Part shown: one piece after another, positions 95-62,912 of the stretch | Layout: the number at the start of each line of letters is the position of its first letter | How positions within the stretch are numbered: the stretch's first letter is position 1 | Source of the DNA: Burkholderiales bacterium RIFCSPLOWO2_02_FULL_57_36 | GTDB lineage: Bacteria > Pseudomonadota > Gammaproteobacteria > Burkholderiales > Burkholderiaceae_D | NCBI GenBank assembly: GCA_001770855.1 | Contig: MESE01000094.1 | Location: forward strand, 1 to 64,000 | Reading direction: 5' to 3' | Length of the DNA stretch: 64,000 bases | Position numbers and translations under genes: made by a program | Notes under the pieces: model-generated | Databases searched by the model: none | Seen by the model: the letters and a program-made list of their open reading frames with translations, nothing else | What the model was told of the DNA's origin: nothing

Positions 95-1494
95 GTAATC
101 AGGAAAGCGCGAACCTCTCCAACATGTCCGCCGCCGGCCGTCAATGTCGGGAACGGCTCGTCCATTCCTTGGCCGAATTGGTTATTGCGTAACTTGACCA
201 GGTGCGATGTCACGAGCGTTGTGTCCGCCTTACTTGTGACCGTAGCAGTCGGCTCGCTCACATCGCGCGGGCGAGACTGCCCAGCACGACCGCCGCAGCC
301 GACAAGCTGAGCGGTAACTACGGAATGGTGGTCACTGGTAGTAACGGTGCCAAAAGGCACTTTAACGCTGGTGCCGACTACTCCGGTGTAATGCTTGGCC
401 AGCATCGCCATGACCAGCGCCTGTTCACCACGATGTGCCCCGGTAATGGTTGCAATTGGTGCATCGACTGATGCTGTACGGTCGGCGCCATGATGAGTCA
501 GATGCATCAGGGTGGGAGATACAAGCCCGAAGCGTGGTGCGCCCGCCATGACAGTGTGCAGCGGTTCATCGATCTGCTGGCCGGTGCTGTTCTCGGGAAA
601 CTTCACGATAAATGGATCAGCCGAATTAACGACAAACTTCATGATGCCCTTGGCGATTCGGCGCAGCGTCGCGTCTTTCAGCGGCCGCTTGCGAGTAAAA
701 ATTGACGGGCAGGGGATCGACCAATCGATGCATTCGGCGGCCGTAGCCCAAGGCAACAAACCGCTTTTCGCGAATCCCGGCAACTTTGGATTGTCATGAG
801 TCGGCGATGGCCAGACGATCGGCAAACCATCGCGGCGCGCGAAAATGTATAGACGCTTGCGAATAGTTGGCGTGCCATATTTGTAAGCTCTGAGAATCCG
901 GTGCTCGACTTTGTAACCCAGTCCAGCGTATAGCCGGCCCATTGGGAAGTCGGCACCGAGCGCATCATAAATTTCAGGTATATCCGGATGATCTTTGGCC
1001 AATCCTGTTGAGAGTGCATCTATGAAGGCACGGAAGGTGCGGCCTTTCTCGGATTTAATGGGCTTCCCGGCGTCATCCAGCGGCCCCCAATCCTGAAATT
1101 CTTCGACGTTCTCAAGTGCGATCGCGCGCGGCATCTGAAACGTTCCCCATTTCAGCGTAACCCACGCAAGGCCGCGAATCTTCTGCTCGCGCGGTTTCCC
1201 GCCCTTGGCCTTGGAGTGATGCTTGCAATCCGGGCTGAACCAGGCAAGACCGATCGGGCGTTGGCCTGTGACGAAGCCGGGATGAATGTCAAACACATCT
1301 TCTTGATAGTGCGCAGTTCGAGGGTGATTGGCAGCATGCATGGCCAACGCTTCGCCGTCATGATTAATGGCTACATCGACCGGACGGCCAAATGCCTGTT
1401 CAATGCCCTCGGATGCACCGCCGCCCCCGGCAAAGTTATCGATGTTCAGTTCGTTGCCGAGGTCAAGCGGCAGGCTTAAAAAATCTCGCTTCAT
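76..1494 (-). CDS. Phage DNA (cytosine-5) methyltransferase
   Basis: This 472-residue protein should transfer a methyl group from S-adenosylmethionine to C5 of cytosine. The N-terminus has motif I (FAGGGGASEG, about residues 21-30). The catalytic-cysteine motif is a variant, SPDCKHHSKAKGG (about residues 87-99), in place of the classic PCQ. Motif VI is seen as ENVEEF (about 128-133). The C-terminal half is the probable target-recognition region. The start codon ATG overlaps the stop of the upstream reverse transcriptase (ATGA, 1491-1494), so the two are probably translationally coupled. It is the last gene of the leftward operon. Such phage enzymes usually protect DNA from host restriction; a role in the retroelement is not shown. 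Confidence 0.85.
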   Translation of the reverse strand: MKRDFLSLPLDLGNELNIDNFAGGGGASEGIEQAFGRPVDVAINHDGEALAMHAANHPRTAHYQEDVFDIHPGFVTGQRPIGLAWFSPDCKHHSKAKGGKPREQKIRGLAWVTLKWGTFQMPRAIALENVEEFQDWGPLDDAGKPIKSEKGRTFRAFIDALSTGLAKDHPDIPEIYDALGADFPMGRLYAGLGYKVEHRILRAYKYGTPTIRKRLYIFARRDGLPIVWPSPTHDNPKLPGFAKSGLLPWATAAECIDWSIPCPSIFTRKRPLKDATLRRIAKGIMKFVVNSADPFIVKFPENSTGQQIDEPLHTVMAGAPRFGLVSPTLMHLTHHGADRTASVDAPIATITGAHRGEQALVMAMLAKHYTGVVGTSVKVPFGTVTTSDHHSVVTAQLVGCGGRAGQSRPRDVSEPTATVTSKADTTLVTSHLVKLRNNQFGQGMDEPFPTLTAGGGHVGEVRAFLITHKSEI

Positions 1495-2699
1495 GCAAAC
1501 TCCCTTAATTGTTTTCTATATGATTTTGTCAATTGCCGATTTACCGAATGTCCGCGCTGAAGCACGGCATTCGCCAGGCGCGCACGGTCGGCATGACTGG
1601 CATTCGACTGGCCCAACAATCCGAAATAGCTGTTCGCCGATGCATAGACGTCGCCGGCATCCATGGACAGAATCCTGCCCACTGCTTGTGCGACTGTCCG
1701 TCGGCGCGACCGGGTATTCCATGGCTTGATCACATGGCCGACGAAATCGACGCCGCGATCGACTGGCTGCAAAATGGTTTTGCTCGGGTTCAGACGTGCA
1801 TGCAGCACGCGTGGCAGGAATGCATCGATCTCGGCATGCGCGGCATTGAGCCACTGCGGCGAATCGTGCAGCAAAATGAAATCATCGACGTACCGGATGT
1901 AATGCCGGGCGCCAATGCGGTGCTTGGCATGCTGGTCGAGCACGTCCAGGTAGACGTTGGCGAAGAACTGCGACGACAGATTGCCGATCGGCAGGCCAAG
2001 GTGTGCCGGCTGGTTGGTCAGGCGCTTGTGCGGCGGCACGCGCTCCAGCAGGGATGCATTCCCGCGGTACTCGAAGTCTTGGCGCGGATCGTGGAACAGG
2101 ATCACATCGGCAAGCCAAAGCCACCATGGTTCTTGCACGCGCGCAGCGATCAGGTCCCGCAGGACATTCTTGTCGATGCTGACGAAGAAGTTCGCCAGAT
2201 CGCATTTCAGGTACCAGGCCGGTCTTGTCCAGTTCTGCGTGATGCTGCGGATCTTGGCTTCCAGTCGGCGCGCTGCGTAAAGGGTGCCGCGCCCAGGAAT
2301 GCACGCGCAGCTGTCGGCGACAAACGAGGAATAGAATCGCGGGGCGATACGGTTGTACAGCAGGTGATGCACGATCCGGTCGCGGAAGTCTGCTGCCCAT
2401 ACTTCACGGGCTTTCGGTCTGGTGACCACGAAACAGATTGACTTGCCCGGCCTATAACTGCCGGCGGCCAGCTCGTCATACAGGCGCGACAAATTACGCT
2501 CTAGATTCTGCTCGAAAGCCAGGGCGGTTTCTGTATTGCGTTTGCTTTTCCGGCAGTCGAAGTAAGCCTGGACCAGATCAGGAAAAGAAAAATCAGCATG
2601 GTGGCGCTCGGATTGATCTGCGGACGGCGCGAGCGCGCAGCGCTGCGCTCTTGTTGTTGTTGTTCTGGTTGCCGTTGTTGAAGTTCTGATACCAGGCAT
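1491..2699 (-). CDS. DGR-type reverse transcriptase
   Basis: This enzyme copies the template repeat RNA into adenine-mutagenised cDNA. The polymerase motif YVDD is encoded at 1881-1892. The palm motif IGNLSSQ, matching the [ILV]GxxxSQ form typical of DGR enzymes instead of QGxxxSP, lies at about 1968-1988. The recognisable domain begins with FSFPDLVQAYFDCRKSK just after the template repeat, and no ATG, GTG or TTG lies between the repeat and this point. The nearest in-frame ATG (2697-2699) is inside the template repeat, and the frame stays open up to 2930 with other ATGs at 2828 and 2882. The start is therefore uncertain; the catalytic region is intact. Length is about 400 residues from the chosen start, and the gene is coupled to the methyltransferase by a 4-bp overlap. 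Confidence 0.9.
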   Translation of the reverse strand: MPGIRTSTTATRTTTTRAQRCALAPSADQSERHHADFSFPDLVQAYFDCRKSKRNTETALAFEQNLERNLSRLYDELAAGSYRPGKSICFVVTRPKAREVWAADFRDRIVHHLLYNRIAPRFYSSFVADSCACIPGRGTLYAARRLEAKIRSITQNWTRPAWYLKCDLANFFVSIDKNVLRDLIAARVQEPWWLWLADVILFHDPRQDFEYRGNASLLERVPPHKRLTNQPAHLGLPIGNLSSQFFANVYLDVLDQHAKHRIGARHYIRYVDDFILLHDSPQWLNAAHAEIDAFLPRVLHARLNPSKTILQPVDRGVDFVGHVIKPWNTRSRRRTVAQAVGRILSMDAGDVYASANSYFGLLGQSNASHADRARLANAVLQRGHSVNRQLTKSYRKQLREFA

Positions 2700-2722
2700 A
2701 ATCAGAGTTGGCTGCGTGCTGC
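2616..2722 (-). repeat. DGR template repeat (TR)
   Basis: This 107-bp segment lies between avd and the reverse transcriptase and is a near copy of the 3' ends of both target genes. Read on the minus strand in the targets' frame it is rich in AAC codons (N-F-N-N-G-N-Q-N-N-N-N-K). Against VR1 it differs at 8 positions, all adenines in the TR. Against VR2 it differs at 14, of which 13 are adenines. Its GC-rich 3' part, including the 14-bp palindrome GCGCAGCGCTGCGC (2635-2648), is unchanged in VR1 and has one change nearby in VR2, as expected of the initiation-of-homing region. Confidence 0.95.
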
Positions 2723-2896
2723 GTCCTGTTGTGCTATCTACGTCGCCCTGCCGAAGGCCGGAGCCGATCAACGGGGAAACTGCGCCAGACCGTACCTGGA
2801 CACTGCCAGAGGTATCTGCGATGCGCATGTCGGTGGCCTTGTGAGCCAGCGGCACAACCAGATTAAAAGTTCGTTCAGTCATAGTGGCCGTGACCC

Positions 2897-3250
2897 TTAT
2901 GAAGCAGACGAAAGTGCGGAACGGCGCCATCCACCCGCCTGCTTGCCGACGCTATTGGTCAGATCGATTGCTTTGGCATACTGGCCGGTCGAAATCATCC
3001 GCTTGTCTCGTGAGAGGCGCAGCAGTAGTTCGGCGACCTGCAGGCGCTCGATCAGTTCGCCCAAGTGCGGCGCTTTATCCCGAGCGCTGTTGGCGCGGAA
3101 TATGAGCACCACAATCTCAACGCATTCCTCACTGATCTTTCCGCCAATCGATGCCTTGAAATTGCGTGGCATGTTCTTGACTAAATCAGTGACAACGTCG
3201 AGAAGATCGTAGGCGACCTTATATATCGGCAGATTGGTGTGGAGTGCCAT
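2897..3250 (-). CDS. avd: Avd-like DGR accessory protein (four-helix bundle)
   Basis: This 117-residue, mostly helical, basic protein starts MALHTNLPIYKVAYDLLDVV. It has the pattern of the S23/Avd family, whose BPP-1 member forms a barrel-shaped pentamer that binds the reverse transcriptase and template RNA and is needed for retrohoming. The position between the target genes and the template repeat is the same as in the Bordetella phage BPP-1 cassette (target, avd, TR, RT). The assignment comes from size, fold pattern and context; sequence similarity could not be tested here. Confidence 0.85.
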   Translation of the reverse strand: MALHTNLPIYKVAYDLLDVVTDLVKNMPRNFKASIGGKISEECVEIVVLIFRANSARDKAPHLGELIERLQVAELLLRLSRDKRMISTGQYAKAIDLTNSVGKQAGGWRRSALSSAS

Positions 3251-3268
3251 GCTGATGAAATAGTTAAA

Positions 3269-3733
3269 TTACAAAATAATTAATCTGCGGACGGCGCGAG
3301 CGCGCAGCGCTGCGCTCTTGTAGCTGTTGATCTGGTAGCCGTTGTCGAAGTACTGACACCAGGCATAATCAGAGTGGGCTGCGTGCTGCTCGCAGGACCA
3401 GTACCAATTTGGTTTGAATTGTTCCTTCAGATTGGCGTACAGAAGCGCCTGTTCACGGCGCGTCGGCAATTCACCGCCAGCCTTGACCGCCCATTCCACG
3501 GCATTCGCCCAGGTGATTTCCTCGGCTTCACCGGACAGCAGGATCAGGTGATGGCTGGAAGCACCATCCTTCCCGATGATGATGCCGGCATAGTGTTCGC
3601 CGTCGTTCAGATCGATTTCAGCTTCGGGCAGCGAGAAAAGACGCTTTTCTTTGATCTGCACTTCGAATGCTGCGATTACTTCGGCCAGCCGGTTGTGCTC
3701 GGTTTTGATCGATTCAAGCGTGATGGTGGTCAT
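3269..3733 (-). CDS. DGR target protein 1 (DUF1566/C-type-lectin-like)
   Basis: This 154-residue protein ends in the variable repeat VR1. The C-terminal segment WYWSCEQHAA...WCQYF...KSAALRARAVRRL is the DUF1566 (Lcl C-terminal) signature common in DGR targets, with variable side chains displayed on a C-type-lectin fold. I chose the ATG at 3731-3733 (MTTITLESIK), which follows GAGGAG at a suitable distance; the frame stays open upstream only because it runs through VR2. No signal peptide or membrane segment is seen, so the product is either cytoplasmic or carried on the virion. It lies between target 2 and avd. The binding partner is unknown. Confidence 0.9.
   Translation of the reverse strand: MTTITLESIKTEHNRLAEVIAAFEVQIKEKRLFSLPEAEIDLNDGEHYAGIIIGKDGASSHHLILLSGEAEEITWANAVEWAVKAGGELPTRREQALLYANLKEQFKPNWYWSCEQHAAHSDYAWCQYFDNGYQINSYKSAALRARAVRRLIIL
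3283..3389 (-). repeat. DGR variable repeat 1 (VR1)
   Basis: VR1 aligns with the template repeat over 107 bp without gaps. All 8 mismatches are at template adenines (on the coding strand A to C once, A to G three times, A to T four times). They change Asn codons to His, Tyr, Asp, Ile and Ser, and one Tyr to Cys. The match ends four residues before the stop codon of target 1. Confidence 0.93.
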
Positions 3734-3765
3734 GTGGGCGGACTCCTCTGAAAATTGATAAAGGA

Positions 3766-4377
3766 CTAAATGGCTAATCTGCGGACGGCGCGCGCGCGCA
3801 GCGCTGCGCTCTTGCCGTTGCCGTACTGGTCGCCGTCGTCGAAGTCCTGACACCAGGCACAACCAGAGTCGGCTGCGTGCTGCGTTGAGCTCCAATACCA
3901 AGCCGGATCGAATGCTTCTACTGCGTCAGCCTGAAACACCTCTGCGGCAGTCTGCGCAGGCAATTCACTGGTGTAGGGATAAGTCGGTGGAACCGCTGAC
4001 ACATTGATGCCAGAGCGCGCATAAAGATAATTTTCTTCGGCGGTTGGCTTCAGGTTTCGATAGAGGATTTCGAGTTCGTCCTGCGATGGCAGGTACCAGT
4101 CGTCATGTCCGGCAATGTGCAGGTCCAGTGACCATTGCGCGAGTTTGCTTCCAGCTGCAGCCATCGCATGGGTATTCGCCAGGCCATCGTTGTAAGACAG
4201 CGCGCCATCAACAGTTTCCCGGGAATCATTCCAGACTATGTCTGCATGCTCGCCATCAGCTTTGGGGGCGACGATCAGTGCGAATACCTGTTCGCCGATT
4301 TTCACGCGGCCAGCGTAGAAGCCGCCGGCCATCGAGGTTCCGAGGATCGCTGTGATTTCTTGAATGGAGGATTTCAT
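3766..4377 (-). CDS. DGR target protein 2 (DUF1566/C-type-lectin-like)
   Basis: This 203-residue protein has a full DUF1566-type domain. The first half carries GGFYAGRVKIGEQVFALIVAP and DDWYLPSQDELE, and the C-terminus is WYWSSTQHAA...KSAALRARAVRRLAI within VR2. The chosen ATG (4375-4377) follows AAGGAA. The frame extends upstream to 4479 but without a convincing ribosome-binding site. It is longer than target 1 and shares a similar middle region. No signal peptide, membrane segment or fibre-like repeat is visible. It is the first gene of the DGR block after a 108-bp gap. Function beyond ligand display is unknown. Confidence 0.9.
   Translation of the reverse strand: MKSSIQEITAILGTSMAGGFYAGRVKIGEQVFALIVAPKADGEHADIVWNDSRETVDGALSYNDGLANTHAMAAAGSKLAQWSLDLHIAGHDDWYLPSQDELEILYRNLKPTAEENYLYARSGINVSAVPPTYPYTSELPAQTAAEVFQADAVEAFDPAWYWSSTQHAADSGCAWCQDFDDGDQYGNGKSAALRARAVRRLAI
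3777..3885 (-). repeat. DGR variable repeat 2 (VR2)
   Basis: VR2 matches the template repeat over about 109 bp with 13 mismatches at template adenines and one elsewhere (3793, T to G on the coding strand, next to the GC-rich homing region). Asn codons have become Asp (five), Tyr and Gly, and other A-containing codons have changed to Gly and Cys. The pattern differs from VR1, so the two targets were diversified independently from one template. Confidence 0.93.
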
Positions 4378-5632: not shown

Positions 5633-7387
5633 TTAAAGATTGACGGCAATGCGGTTGCCAGCCGCTTCGAGATCCATGTCAAGCAGCCATGCGACCACTT
5701 TGCTTTCATGAACGCGGAAGTGCAGGGAAAGAACTTCGATGATCTCCTCGTCGGTCGGACCGGTGGCGGTTGCCTTGGCGGTGAATGGCATGGATGCTGC
5801 AGGGTTGAGTTGTGTAACCGTTGCAGTCGGTGCGGCGCCGGCCCGTTCCGCGGTAAGCGGCGGGTAGACGACGGCTGGCGGTTGCTCAGCTTCCACACGC
5901 TTTGCAGCGGCTTCCTCCTCACGGCGCTGTTGTGCGGCTGCCAGCATTGCCTGTTGGCGCTCGGCAGCAGCTTTCTCCTCCGCTTCGCGCTTGGCTTTGG
6001 CCTCGGCCTTGATCCGCTCTTCTTCTTGAATTCGCGCACGCTCGGCAGCCAGGCGCTTTTCCTCAGCTTCCTTGTGCTCCGAAATGCGCAGCCGGATCAA
6101 TGCGGTGCAGTCGTCATTCGCCTTCAGGACGATCTGTGCCGCATCCGCGAATAGGAACGGATGGTCGACCGCGATGTCGCGCAGGGTATTGAGGTTGAAC
6201 TGGATCTTGTCCGCGATCGCGTTGGCTTCGATCTTGAACCGGGACAACTCGGTGTCCACAGCGTCGCGCAGGCTGGCGATACTTTTCTTGCCCTTCATCA
6301 CGCCAGCGAAGTCGACCGGTACAGTGGGCATGTACGGCTTGCCAAGGCGCTTGTTCAATCCGTCGATATGCTCCGCAGCCTTGTCCTTGGCGCCCTGTTG
6401 AATCTCGATGCGGATGGTTTCTTTGCGGGCCTTGACGAGTTTTTCCAGCATCAGGCGCGTGGTGCGCGCCATTTCGCTGTACATCGCCACGGTCTTGGTC
6501 ATGTCGTCAATGTCGGCCGTCTGTGCCAGTGCGCTTGCTTCGGCGGCTTCCAGTGCATCCTGGGCTTTTTGCAGCACCTTTACCGCTGCTTCACAGTCGG
6601 CAAACGCCTGGTCATCGGACGGGTTCTTGTCGATGTCCTTGATGAACGACTGCAGGCGATCGCCGAAGATGGTCAGATTGGATTGCAGTGTGATCGCACC
6701 GTTGACCCGAATTGTCAGTGCAGGCAGGTCCATGACCGGCGCGGCAACGGCGGCCGGCAGTACTTCGACGTGCTGATATTCAGCAAGGTCTATTGTGAAC
6801 TGCTCCCAGCCTGCGATGATTTCTTCGCGAAGGGCCGCGTCGGGGTAGTACAAGCAATGCTGTTCCTCGACCAGCCGCTCACCTTCCCACTTTGATGCCA
6901 TAAACAGGACACGGTGGCAGTCAGCGACCATGCACTGCTGTTCCATCTGTACCCGATAATGCTTGAGCAGCACGTTACCGGACCAGCGCTCGCGGTGCTC
7001 TGGTGCGATTGTCTCCATGTCGGCGAAACAAGCGCGCAGCTCATCGTTGAGGCTTTTGTGCTCAAACGCTGTGCTTTCGTCCATGGTGAGCCCGTCGAAC
7101 GACGCGCTGAATTTCCCATGAGATCCAACGACGGGATAAAGATCCTCCTGGATAAGTGCCTCGCCGATCGGACGGGCCAGTGCCTCAAAGCGGTGCCCAT
7201 TGTCGAAGAGTGTTTGCGTTGCGGAATCGACTTCCTTCACGGCGCCGGTAGCGCACTCGTGCAGCAGTTGTGATCGTGTCTTGTAGGGCGAGCATCCCAG
7301 CATCGCAGGTGCGTCACTGGCGTTGAAGTGGTTGGCGCGGTAGGCGTGCCATTCGGCGCTGCCTTGGATCAGGTCATGGGTTTGCAT
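5633..7387 (-). CDS. YqaJ-family (lambda-exonuclease-like) nuclease with coiled-coil tail
   Basis: This 584-residue protein has an N-terminal YqaJ-type PD-(D/E)XK nuclease domain: QGSAEWHAYRANHFNASDAP (residues 8-27), then SFDGLTMDE and the FEHKS active-site element near residue 110. Such enzymes resect double-stranded ends to give 3' single strands for annealing. The C-terminal half is strongly helical and charged, with an Ala/Glu/Lys/Arg-rich coiled coil (about 435-500), and is longer than in lambda Exo. It is followed by the KTSC gene and preceded, 25 bp away, by the putative annealing protein: a two-gene recombination pair. Confidence 0.85.
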   Translation of the reverse strand: MQTHDLIQGSAEWHAYRANHFNASDAPAMLGCSPYKTRSQLLHECATGAVKEVDSATQTLFDNGHRFEALARPIGEALIQEDLYPVVGSHGKFSASFDGLTMDESTAFEHKSLNDELRACFADMETIAPEHRERWSGNVLLKHYRVQMEQQCMVADCHRVLFMASKWEGERLVEEQHCLYYPDAALREEIIAGWEQFTIDLAEYQHVEVLPAAVAAPVMDLPALTIRVNGAITLQSNLTIFGDRLQSFIKDIDKNPSDDQAFADCEAAVKVLQKAQDALEAAEASALAQTADIDDMTKTVAMYSEMARTTRLMLEKLVKARKETIRIEIQQGAKDKAAEHIDGLNKRLGKPYMPTVPVDFAGVMKGKKSIASLRDAVDTELSRFKIEANAIADKIQFNLNTLRDIAVDHPFLFADAAQIVLKANDDCTALIRLRISEHKEAEEKRLAAERARIQEEERIKAEAKAKREAEEKAAAERQQAMLAAAQQRREEEAAAKRVEAEQPPAVVYPPLTAERAGAAPTATVTQLNPAASMPFTAKATATGPTDEEIIEVLSLHFRVHESKVVAWLLDMDLEAAGNRIAVNL

Positions 7388-42691: not shown

Positions 42692-43771
42692 ATGGATCGC
42701 GTCATGATTTATCCAGGTCAGATACCACTTGAGACGGACCTTCTCAGCACGAACAAACACGCCATGATCGCGTTGAGCAAATTGGCCGCCGCGATTCTGG
42801 GTACCAACACGTTGGCCAACGGGTTGCCGTGCACTGCGACCAGTCCAGCATCAATGAGCGTTTCGATCGGTGTCGGCGAGATTTATGCACTTGCGAATAT
42901 TGACGGCACCGCATACAGCTCGATCGCAGCCGACACGACACATACGATCCTGAAGCAGGGTATCAAGCTTGATTCGAGCGATCTGGCATGTGCGGCGCCG
43001 GGCACCGTTGGTCATAGCATCAACTACCTAATTCAAGCCGCATTCAGTGAAGTCGACGGCACCCCAATCGTGCTGCCTTACTACAACGCGAGCAATCCAG
43101 CCTCCGCATATGCCGGCCCAAACAATACCGGCGTTGCTGAGAATACGAATCGCGCTGGCACAGTCGTAGTGAGCGCCAAGGCTGGCATCTCGGCTACTAC
43201 CGGTGCACAGACGACGCCATCGCCTGACGCGGGATATGTCGGCCTTTGGGTCGTAACGGTCGCCAACGGCGCGACCACAATCACGTCCGGCAATATCGCA
43301 CAGGCAGCAAGTGCACCATTTATCGCAACGACACTTGCGAATTTAGCGCCGTTGGCTTCTCCGGTGTTATCTGGTGTTCCAACTGCACCGACGGCGGCAG
43401 TTGGAACAAACACTACGCAGCTCGCGACCACAGCGTTCGCGGTCGCAGAGATTCTGAACCAGTTCACCAAGAGCGGTCAGCAATCGCTTGCAACCAACGG
43501 CTATCAGATTTTTCCGGGTGGCCTCATCCGGCAGTGGGGCAAGGTGACCGGCATCATTACGTCAGGCGATTTCGTGCAGCCCATTACATTTCCTTTTGCG
43601 TTTCCGAACGCACTGTACGGCGTCCATCCAACACTCATCTCCATCGCATCGAGCGTTGCAATGTCGGTATACGTGACAAACGAGACGTTGAGCGGGGCAG
43701 ACATTGTGATCGACAAAGACGGCACAGAGGCGTTCGGTGTCTCTCTCTACTATGAAGCATGGGGTAAATAA
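42692..43771 (+). CDS. Tail fibre protein
   Basis: This 359-residue protein has a baseplate-binding N-terminus (MDRVMIYPGQIPLETDLLST), a central region with SPVLSGVPTAPTAAVGTNTT (a repeat seen in many fibre proteins), TQLATTAFAVAEI and a C-terminal receptor-binding part (FPGGLIRQWGKVTGI). It is followed by a fibre-assembly-like gene. It carries no variable repeat, so the retroelement does not diversify this fibre. Confidence 0.85.
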   Translation: MDRVMIYPGQIPLETDLLSTNKHAMIALSKLAAAILGTNTLANGLPCTATSPASMSVSIGVGEIYALANIDGTAYSSIAADTTHTILKQGIKLDSSDLACAAPGTVGHSINYLIQAAFSEVDGTPIVLPYYNASNPASAYAGPNNTGVAENTNRAGTVVVSAKAGISATTGAQTTPSPDAGYVGLWVVTVANGATTITSGNIAQAASAPFIATTLANLAPLASPVLSGVPTAPTAAVGTNTTQLATTAFAVAEILNQFTKSGQQSLATNGYQIFPGGLIRQWGKVTGIITSGDFVQPITFPFAFPNALYGVHPTLISIASSVAMSVYVTNETLSGADIVIDKDGTEAFGVSLYYEAWGK

Positions 43772-48029: not shown

Positions 48030-48106
48030 TGGTCGGGACGGAGTGATTCGAACACTCGACCCCTTGCACCCCATGCAAGTACGCTACCAGGCTGCGCTAC
48101 GCCCCG
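48030..48106 (-). tRNA. tRNA-Pro (GGG), probable phage attachment site
   Basis: The 77-nt cloverleaf begins CGGGGCGTAGCGCAGCCTGG, has an anticodon stem CTTGC/GCAAG with loop ATGGGGT (anticodon GGG), the T-arm GGTTCGAATC-like sequence, and an encoded CCA. Length and D-arm match bacterial tRNA-Pro(GGG). The 3' end faces the phage, the usual geometry for integration. Confidence 0.92.
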
Positions 48107-61604: not shown

Positions 61605-62912
61605 ATGACCAACTCCGATACCAAAGCCACCCTGTCATTTTCTGACGGTTCTCCCTCGATCGAGTTTCCGATTTACAAGGGCACGATAGGCCCCGATGTT
61701 ATCGATATTCGCAAGCTTTACGGTGCTACCGGCAAATTTACCTACGATCCGGGTTTCATGTCTACCGCGGCTTGCAACTCGTCGATCACCTATATCGATG
61801 GCGACAAGGGCGAACTGCTTTATCGCGGTTATCCGATCGATCAACTGGCCGTCAATTGCGACTTCCTCGAATCCTGCTACTTGTTGCTGAACGGCGAATT
61901 GCCGAACCAGCAGCAGAAATTGCAATTCGTCAATACAGTCACCAAACACACCATGGTGCACGAGCAGATGCAGTTTTTCTTTCGCGGTTTCCGTCGCGAT
62001 GCGCATCCGATGTCCGTATTGGTTGGCACCGTCGGCGCGCTGGCATCGTTCTATCACGACTCGCTCGATATCAATGATCCGCATCATCGCGAAGTATCCG
62101 CCATTCGTTTGATTGCGAAAATGCCGACCCTGGTCGCGATGTCGTACAAGTATTCAATCGGACAGCCTTTCGTCTACCCGCGCAACGACCTGTCCTACAG
62201 CGCCAACTTCATGCGCATGATGTTTTCCACGCCGTGCGAGGAATACAAAGTCAATGATGTGCTGGTGCGCGCGCTCGACCGCATCCTGATCCTGCACGCC
62301 GATCATGAGCAAAACGCTTCGACCTCCACCGTCAGGTTGTCCGGCTCCAGCGGTGCAAATCCATTCGCATGTATTGCGGCGGGCATCGCCTGCCTGTGGG
62401 GTCCGGCGCACGGCGGCGCCAACGAGGCGGCGCTGAACATGCTCAAGGAAATCGGTTCGGTCGACAACATCGGCGAATTCGTCAAGCAGGTCAAGGACAA
62501 GAATTCCGGCGTCAAGTTGATGGGCTTCGGTCATCGCGTCTACAAGAATTACGACCCGCGCGCCAAGCTGATGCGCGAAACCTGCCATGAAGTGCTGGCG
62601 GAGCTGGGCTTGCAGGACGACCCGCTGTTCAAACTTGCGATGGCGCTTGAAAAAGTGGCGTTGGAAGACGATTACTTCGTGTCGCGCAAACTGTATCCGA
62701 ACGTCGACTTCTATTCCGGCATCGTGCAATCGGCGCTGGGCATCCCGGTTTCTCTTTTCACGGGAATCTTTGCAATGGCGCGTACCGTCGGCTGGATCGC
62801 TCAGTGGAACGAGATGATTTCCGATCCGGAACAAAAGATCGGACGTCCGCGCCAGCTCTTTGTCGGTTCGCCGGCGCGCGATGTGCCACCGATGTCGAAG
62901 CGGGGAAAATGA
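61605..62912 (+). CDS. gltA: Citrate synthase (type II)
   Basis: This 435-residue enzyme condenses oxaloacetate and acetyl-CoA. It has the active-site His in [20 protein letters not shown] and [14 protein letters not shown], and the catalytic Asp region in [12 protein letters not shown]. The length fits the Gram-negative hexameric type. It is the last TCA gene here; a terminator follows. Confidence 0.97.

Follow-up and report, generated by a model that had tools for sequence, protein, structure and literature searches.

The first 64,000 nucleotides of contig MESE01000094.1 from Burkholderiales bacterium RIFCSPLOWO2_02_FULL_57_36 (hereafter the window) include a diversity-generating retroelement (DGR). 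Its parts are arranged on the minus strand in the order target gene 2, target gene 1, the accessory variability determinant gene (avd), the template repeat (TR), and the reverse transcriptase (RT) gene, wherein each target open reading frame (ORF) carries a variable repeat (VR2 or VR1) at its 3′ end. This arrangement supports the proposal of an earlier note, made from the letters of the window, that a complete DGR with two targets and the gene order of BPP-1 resides in a myovirus prophage, and the targets are of the Lcl_C/DUF1566 type. The explanation that best accommodates our data, and in which we place considerable confidence, is a temperate-myovirus DGR with two targets in which an RNA of the Rfam family RT-15 is a folded part of the template RNA located 5′ of TR. 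The element is otherwise ordinary for its lineage and belongs to a well-known kind of element, and multi-target DGRs, DUF1566 targets, and overlap of TR with RT all have been published before (PMC3521204, PMC6642488). What deserves further attention is RT-15, as an RNA domain on the 5′ side of a DGR template.

Between avd and TR, the window contains a full-length match to RT-15 (Rfam RF03018; positions 2722–2913, minus strand) that scores 173.8 bits relative to a gathering score of 82. The RNA, which was absent from the earlier note's account of this interval, overlaps the 3′-terminal 17 nt of avd and reaches 1 to 3 nt into TR. The corresponding position is occupied by RT-15 in all seven relatives scanned, as well as in phage Cruim01. 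Furthermore, among 120 viral contigs chosen solely by a 19-base word inside RT-15, 111 carry an RT of this lineage on the same strand and 220 to 299 nt downstream of the word. Seven of the other nine contigs end within 300 nt, and the remaining two are L200 and L179. L200 keeps avd, RT-15 (word at 6708), a partial TR-like stretch, and an Lcl_C-like ORF, but an RT was not found downstream of its RT-15; the locus is either a relic or relies on functions supplied by another site. L179 holds neither avd nor RT and may be a chance match. A census of RT-15 by genome search was set aside as too sparse and lossy to use (1/369 genomes).

The predicted secondary structure of RT-15 is supported by covariation. 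In our own alignment of 57 sequences, standard base pairs fill 92.6% of the cells at the 59 predicted pairs, compared with a mean of 83.7% (maximum 84.5%) in a column-shuffle control, and changes on both sides occur at 37 of these pairs. These figures are biased in favor of structure, because the shuffles keep relatedness and the structure was predicted from the same alignment. RT-15 is also independently curated as a family in Rfam, where the record for RF03018 reads only “RT-15 RNA,” sRNA gene. In the literature searched, we found no paper naming “RT-15 RNA” or its accession and no publication calling it part of a DGR template RNA, although the primary paper of the family lies outside the literature covered. 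A pairing of the conserved AUCUG of RT-15 with CAGAU at the TR 3′ end, drawn by eye only, is not supported, as TRs of the Bordetella group end in CAAAU and yet RT-15 retains AUCUG.

To place these features within the lineage, we assembled a comparison set of 165 entries consisting of 80 viral and 80 genome loci from RT-based searches, along with the window, L161 (the window's own locus), L162, and phages Magia and QDWS. A single element is represented three times in this set, by the window, L001, and L161. The lineage comprises over 150 loci, mostly from beta- and gammaproteobacteria and their phages, and its median spacings are 168 nt from avd to TR and 14 nt from TR to RT. In 9 of 10 other phage DGRs measured, avd (where annotated) lies 0 to 31 nt from TR, and TR lies 129 to 314 nt from the RT homology. 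In BPP-1 (mtd-avd-TR-brt), avd abuts TR, and a 144-nt spacer covered by the Rfam family Phage_DGR precedes brt, whereas the window lineage has a covarying 192-nt RT-15 domain 5′ of TR and RT homology that begins about 14 nt after TR. The spacer of BPP-1 has been credited with RT-Avd recruitment and priming (PMC12875486). In BalMu-1, the stretch corresponding to this spacer, also 3′ of TR, matches Rfam RT-14, whereas in the window no Rfam match was found between TR and RT.

The RT catalytic region (2597–1491, minus strand; 368 aa) is part of a long ORF (1491–2930) that reads in frame through TR. No usual start codon is present between TR and the RT homology in the window, and the same is true for 136 of 155 loci. 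An in-frame ATG inside TR, with none after TR, was found in 114 of 153 loci. In 18 of those 114 the frame is closed upstream inside TR, which leaves only an initiation site within TR or a non-standard start codon for the RT of these loci. RT coding in the lineage starts inside TR or right at the TR end, and the window RT probably starts either within TR, which has an in-frame ATG at 2699, or at a more upstream position. TR overlapping the RT ORF is already described in a published survey (PMC3521204). No extra synonymous-site constraint was detected in the 5′ codons of RT, and a hidden 3′ spacer within the RT codons was rejected, as synonymous variation there is not reduced.

Given the role credited to the BPP-1 spacer, the spacings in this lineage, and the lack of added synonymous constraint at the start of the RT gene, we favor as simplest the view that RT-15 would perform the scaffold job from the 5′ side, and RT-15 is most likely the structured 5′ part of the DGR template RNA of this lineage. 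In the proposed mechanism, the RT-Avd complex would copy a TR-containing transcript and make errors where the template has adenines, and the resulting cDNA would take the place of the VR at the 3′ end of each of the two target genes. The outcome would be varied residues, mostly at AAC (Asn) codons, in two proteins with predicted C-type-lectin folds. RT-15, positioned directly 5′ of TR in place of a BPP-1-style 3′ spacer, probably serves to recruit RT-Avd, to set the 5′ boundary of the copied segment, or both. A more specific version holds that RT-15 is the scaffold of a distinct DGR architecture, with a 5′ domain for loading RT-Avd, perhaps also for priming, and with RT translation starting inside the template. 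We regard this version as plausible but slightly short of probable.

The lineage offers a clean natural contrast wherein the same RT/Avd chemistry as in BPP-1 is combined with a folded RNA on the opposite side of the template. This allows a direct comparison with BPP-1 on the RNA scaffold duties of loading, priming, and stopping. It also points to a possible function for RT-15, a named Rfam family for which we did not find a role described in the literature searched.

Several points weigh against this proposal. The folding energy of the window RT-15 is no better than that of shuffled sequences (z −0.6), a 3′ spacer need not be conserved in sequence to function, and to our knowledge no experiment links RT-15 to retrohoming. 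Likewise, elements with RT-15 are not alone in the 5′ arrangement, since Bacteroides phage F2, the one exception among the ten other phage DGRs measured, has an avd-TR distance of 128 nt and a TR-RT distance of 30 nt. With respect to the activity of the window copy, a single near-identical contig (L001) was found, and the two are 100% identical across 7597 bases that include the VRs. The long gap in phage F2 (L388; TR 3342–3449) lacks any Rfam match, and may hold a 5′ RNA, not yet described, that belongs to a different DGR lineage.

An alternative is that RT-15 serves mainly as a leader or attenuator (riboregulator) of the RT mRNA, and that the template RNA is scaffolded elsewhere, such as in the RT coding sequence, where a counterpart of the BPP-1 spacer would reside. 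The location of RT-15 is leader-like in that the RT ORF downstream of it starts inside TR or shortly thereafter. We nevertheless consider this alternative unlikely, given that the 3′ boundary of RT-15 coincides with the first bases of TR in all relatives scanned, that RT-15 and RT share a strand in 111 of 111 contigs with RT, and that the RT 5′ codons do not exhibit the extra synonymous constraint expected of a hidden spacer.

The template repeat (about 2724–2612, minus strand) is AAC-rich and includes 34 adenines in a 111-nt core. VR1 (3389–3279, minus strand) differs from TR at eight positions in this core, all of which are TR adenines, and VR2 (3885–3777, minus strand) differs at 14 positions, of which 13 are adenines and the other is a T-to-G change in the GC-rich 3′ tract. 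Thus, TR adenines account for 21 of 22 VR/TR differences (binomial P about 2.5e-10, with A at 34/111 TR positions), and in-register alignment reproduced the counts given in the earlier note. An unguided repeat search recovered all three repeat copies. When TR is read in the target frame, AAC codons are abundant, and stops are reachable by an A-to-N change from only 2 of 37 codons. This bias toward adenines extends throughout the lineage, wherein a TR/VR pair was found in 155 of 165 loci and 4077 of 4261 TR/VR differences (96%) fall at TR adenines. Two or more VRs are present in 131 of these 155 loci, and therefore two targets are the norm.

Evidence for ongoing activity comes from near-identical natural pairs of loci, each of which has an identical TR. 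L053 and L054 differ at 14 of 35 VR adenines, at none of 72 other VR sites, and at 1 of 1933 backbone sites. The corresponding values are 19/30, 0/79, and 0/1586 for L061 and L063, and 29/67, 5/156, and 4/2267 for L005 and L047. In all three pairs, VR adenines changed far more frequently than the backbone (Fisher P 2.4e-25 or smaller). The fact that these pairs differ almost only at VR adenines indicates, at the level of genome sequences, that the lineage is active and diversifies in nature, and the pairs add a view of ongoing diversification in the wild.

The statement in the earlier note that the system has been active therefore holds historically, as judged by the adenine-specific divergence, and for the lineage, as judged by the near-identical pairs; for the copy in the window, it can be stated only as a probability. 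An element that has decayed, whose VR/TR divergence is a fossil and whose window copy is inactive, would agree with the identical VRs of L001. This contig may derive from the same sample as the window contig, and a population test on an exact copy is uninformative about the activity of the window copy. Decay is quite improbable, given that RT, avd, TR, and both targets are intact, that almost no background substitutions accompany the 21 adenine differences, and that close relatives are active. The window copy is intact and probably still diversifying. Similarly improbable is that the sequence upstream of RT is coding, with translation from an ATG at 2882 or 2930 and a 95- to 111-aa N-terminal extension through RT-15 and TR, a notion encouraged by the absence of stops from the RT frame across TR in 133 of 155 loci but rejected because the avd-TR DNA is conserved in differing frames among relatives (L103, L091) and compensatory base-pair changes are common, while stops interrupt the frame in L085, L104, and L163 and the frame is closed inside TR in some relatives.

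Within the 3′ part of TR, and also in VR1, is a GC-rich near-palindrome, GAGCGCAGCGCTGCGCGCTC (2631–2650, minus strand). The single non-adenine change in VR2 alters one stem base of this sequence, which is a possible element of the initiation of mutagenic homing (IMH) type. The hairpin of BPP-1 is located downstream of VR (PMC3240598), unlike the window near-palindrome, which is inside TR and VR1.

The protein components also conform to those expected for a DGR. The RT carries both motifs reported in the earlier note, IGNLSSQ (including the SQ motif) and YVDD (the YxDD box), matches PHROG 1423 (E 1.3e-119), and is of the DGR type. It is 31% identical to BPP-1 Brt. Its best match among solved structures is 8ub7 (E 1.8e-34), which we take to be Brt because its 328-residue chain equals the length of BPP-1 Brt. 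YVDD is present in 142 and IGNLSSQ in 139 of 143 deduplicated RTs of the lineage. NCBIfam retron and Drt models score far below their cut-offs for the window RT, and the best PADLOC match is to a general RT model, with DRT models matching less well. The avd gene (3250–2897, minus strand) encodes a 117-aa protein that matches Pfam bAvd (PF22296) above the cut-off at 56 bits and PHROG 3206, “Avd protein of DGR” (E 5e-35), whereas its NCBIfam DivGenRetAVD score of 59.5 bits is under the cut-off of 80. Pairwise BLASTP of the window Avd with BPP-1 Avd gave no significant match.

Target gene 2 (4377–3766, minus strand) encodes a 203-aa Lcl_C (DUF1566-like) protein with VR2 at its C terminus, and matches Pfam Lcl_C above the cut-off (54 bits) and PHROG 4245 (E 2e-32). 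Target gene 1 (3733–3269, minus strand) encodes a 154-aa protein in which an N-terminal helix is followed by an Lcl_C/C-type-lectin-like domain containing VR1. This protein also matches PHROG 4245 (E 1.7e-12), with a Pfam Lcl_C score (26.8 bits) below the 34.9-bit cut-off. AlphaFold2 models of targets 2 and 1 have mean predicted local distance difference test (pLDDT) values of 95 and 92, respectively, and for each model the top PDB match is the C-terminal domain of Legionella Lcl (E 1.5e-5 for target 1), with C-type lectins ranking lower among solved structures. Both targets are therefore predicted to adopt C-type-lectin folds that are closest to the Lcl domain. The shared PHROG and the models agree with the previous description of the targets as DUF1566/C-type-lectin-like, and DUF1566 is the commonest domain among DGR targets (PMC6642488). 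A separate tail-fibre gene is present at 42692–43771 of the window, and therefore the DGR targets are not that fibre, as the earlier note had held.

The window element resembles that of BPP-1 in gene order, RT motifs, an Avd-type protein, and adenine-specific TR-to-VR transfer, but BPP-1 has one tail-protein target (Mtd) rather than two lectin-like targets. Multi-VR DGRs are known from Ralstonia, Burkholderia, Collimonas, and Pseudomonas, wherein one TR serves two to three VRs in paralogous target ORFs; the window prophage copy is not among the survey entries checked (PMC3521204). A closer relative is the DGR of the cultured Burkholderia phage Magia (MT701587/NC_070954), whose RT is of the same lineage (68% protein identity) and which resembles the window element in how its parts are ordered and spaced near TR and in having several targets that are small and of lectin fold, and is annotated close to a RecT-like gene. 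Magia differs in its phage backbone and in having three VRs by our own count, one of which is about 7 kb from RT. Its announcement names the DGR and two candidate targets, and a text search of the announcement found no mention of “RNA” (PMC7883833).

Two other loci of the lineage merit description. The same assembly carries a second RT-15 DGR (L162; G000 contig C29:34263–35628, plus strand) with its own TR, two VRs, and an RT that is 63% identical, next to ParB-like and HNH genes. This locus may come from another cell, as contamination of the assembly is estimated at about 5%. L119 has four VRs in all, including VRs at −844 and −1380 from RT in two neighbouring target genes that are nearly identical outside the VR and different inside it. 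Judging by these sequences, the pair looks like a recent duplication with separate diversification.

The assignment of the prophage to the myoviruses, also made in the earlier note, is borne out by a tail-sheath protein that matches PHROG 23 (E 3e-45), with Pfam sheath matches below the cut-off. In the window, genes for a RecE-like exonuclease and a cytosine methyltransferase adjoin the DGR, and the sheath gene is ~28 kb away. An early-region location was rejected as a trait of the whole lineage, with RecE/RecT-type genes in only 7 of 65 flanks and Dcm in 16, and the claim is restricted to the window and to annotated phages, Magia among them. An integrase was not identified among the few ORFs tested near a tRNA-Pro gene (48030–48106) that lies close to the right end of the phage genes. 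The region with this tRNA gene is a candidate attachment region, and a host-type citrate synthase gene is found at 61605.

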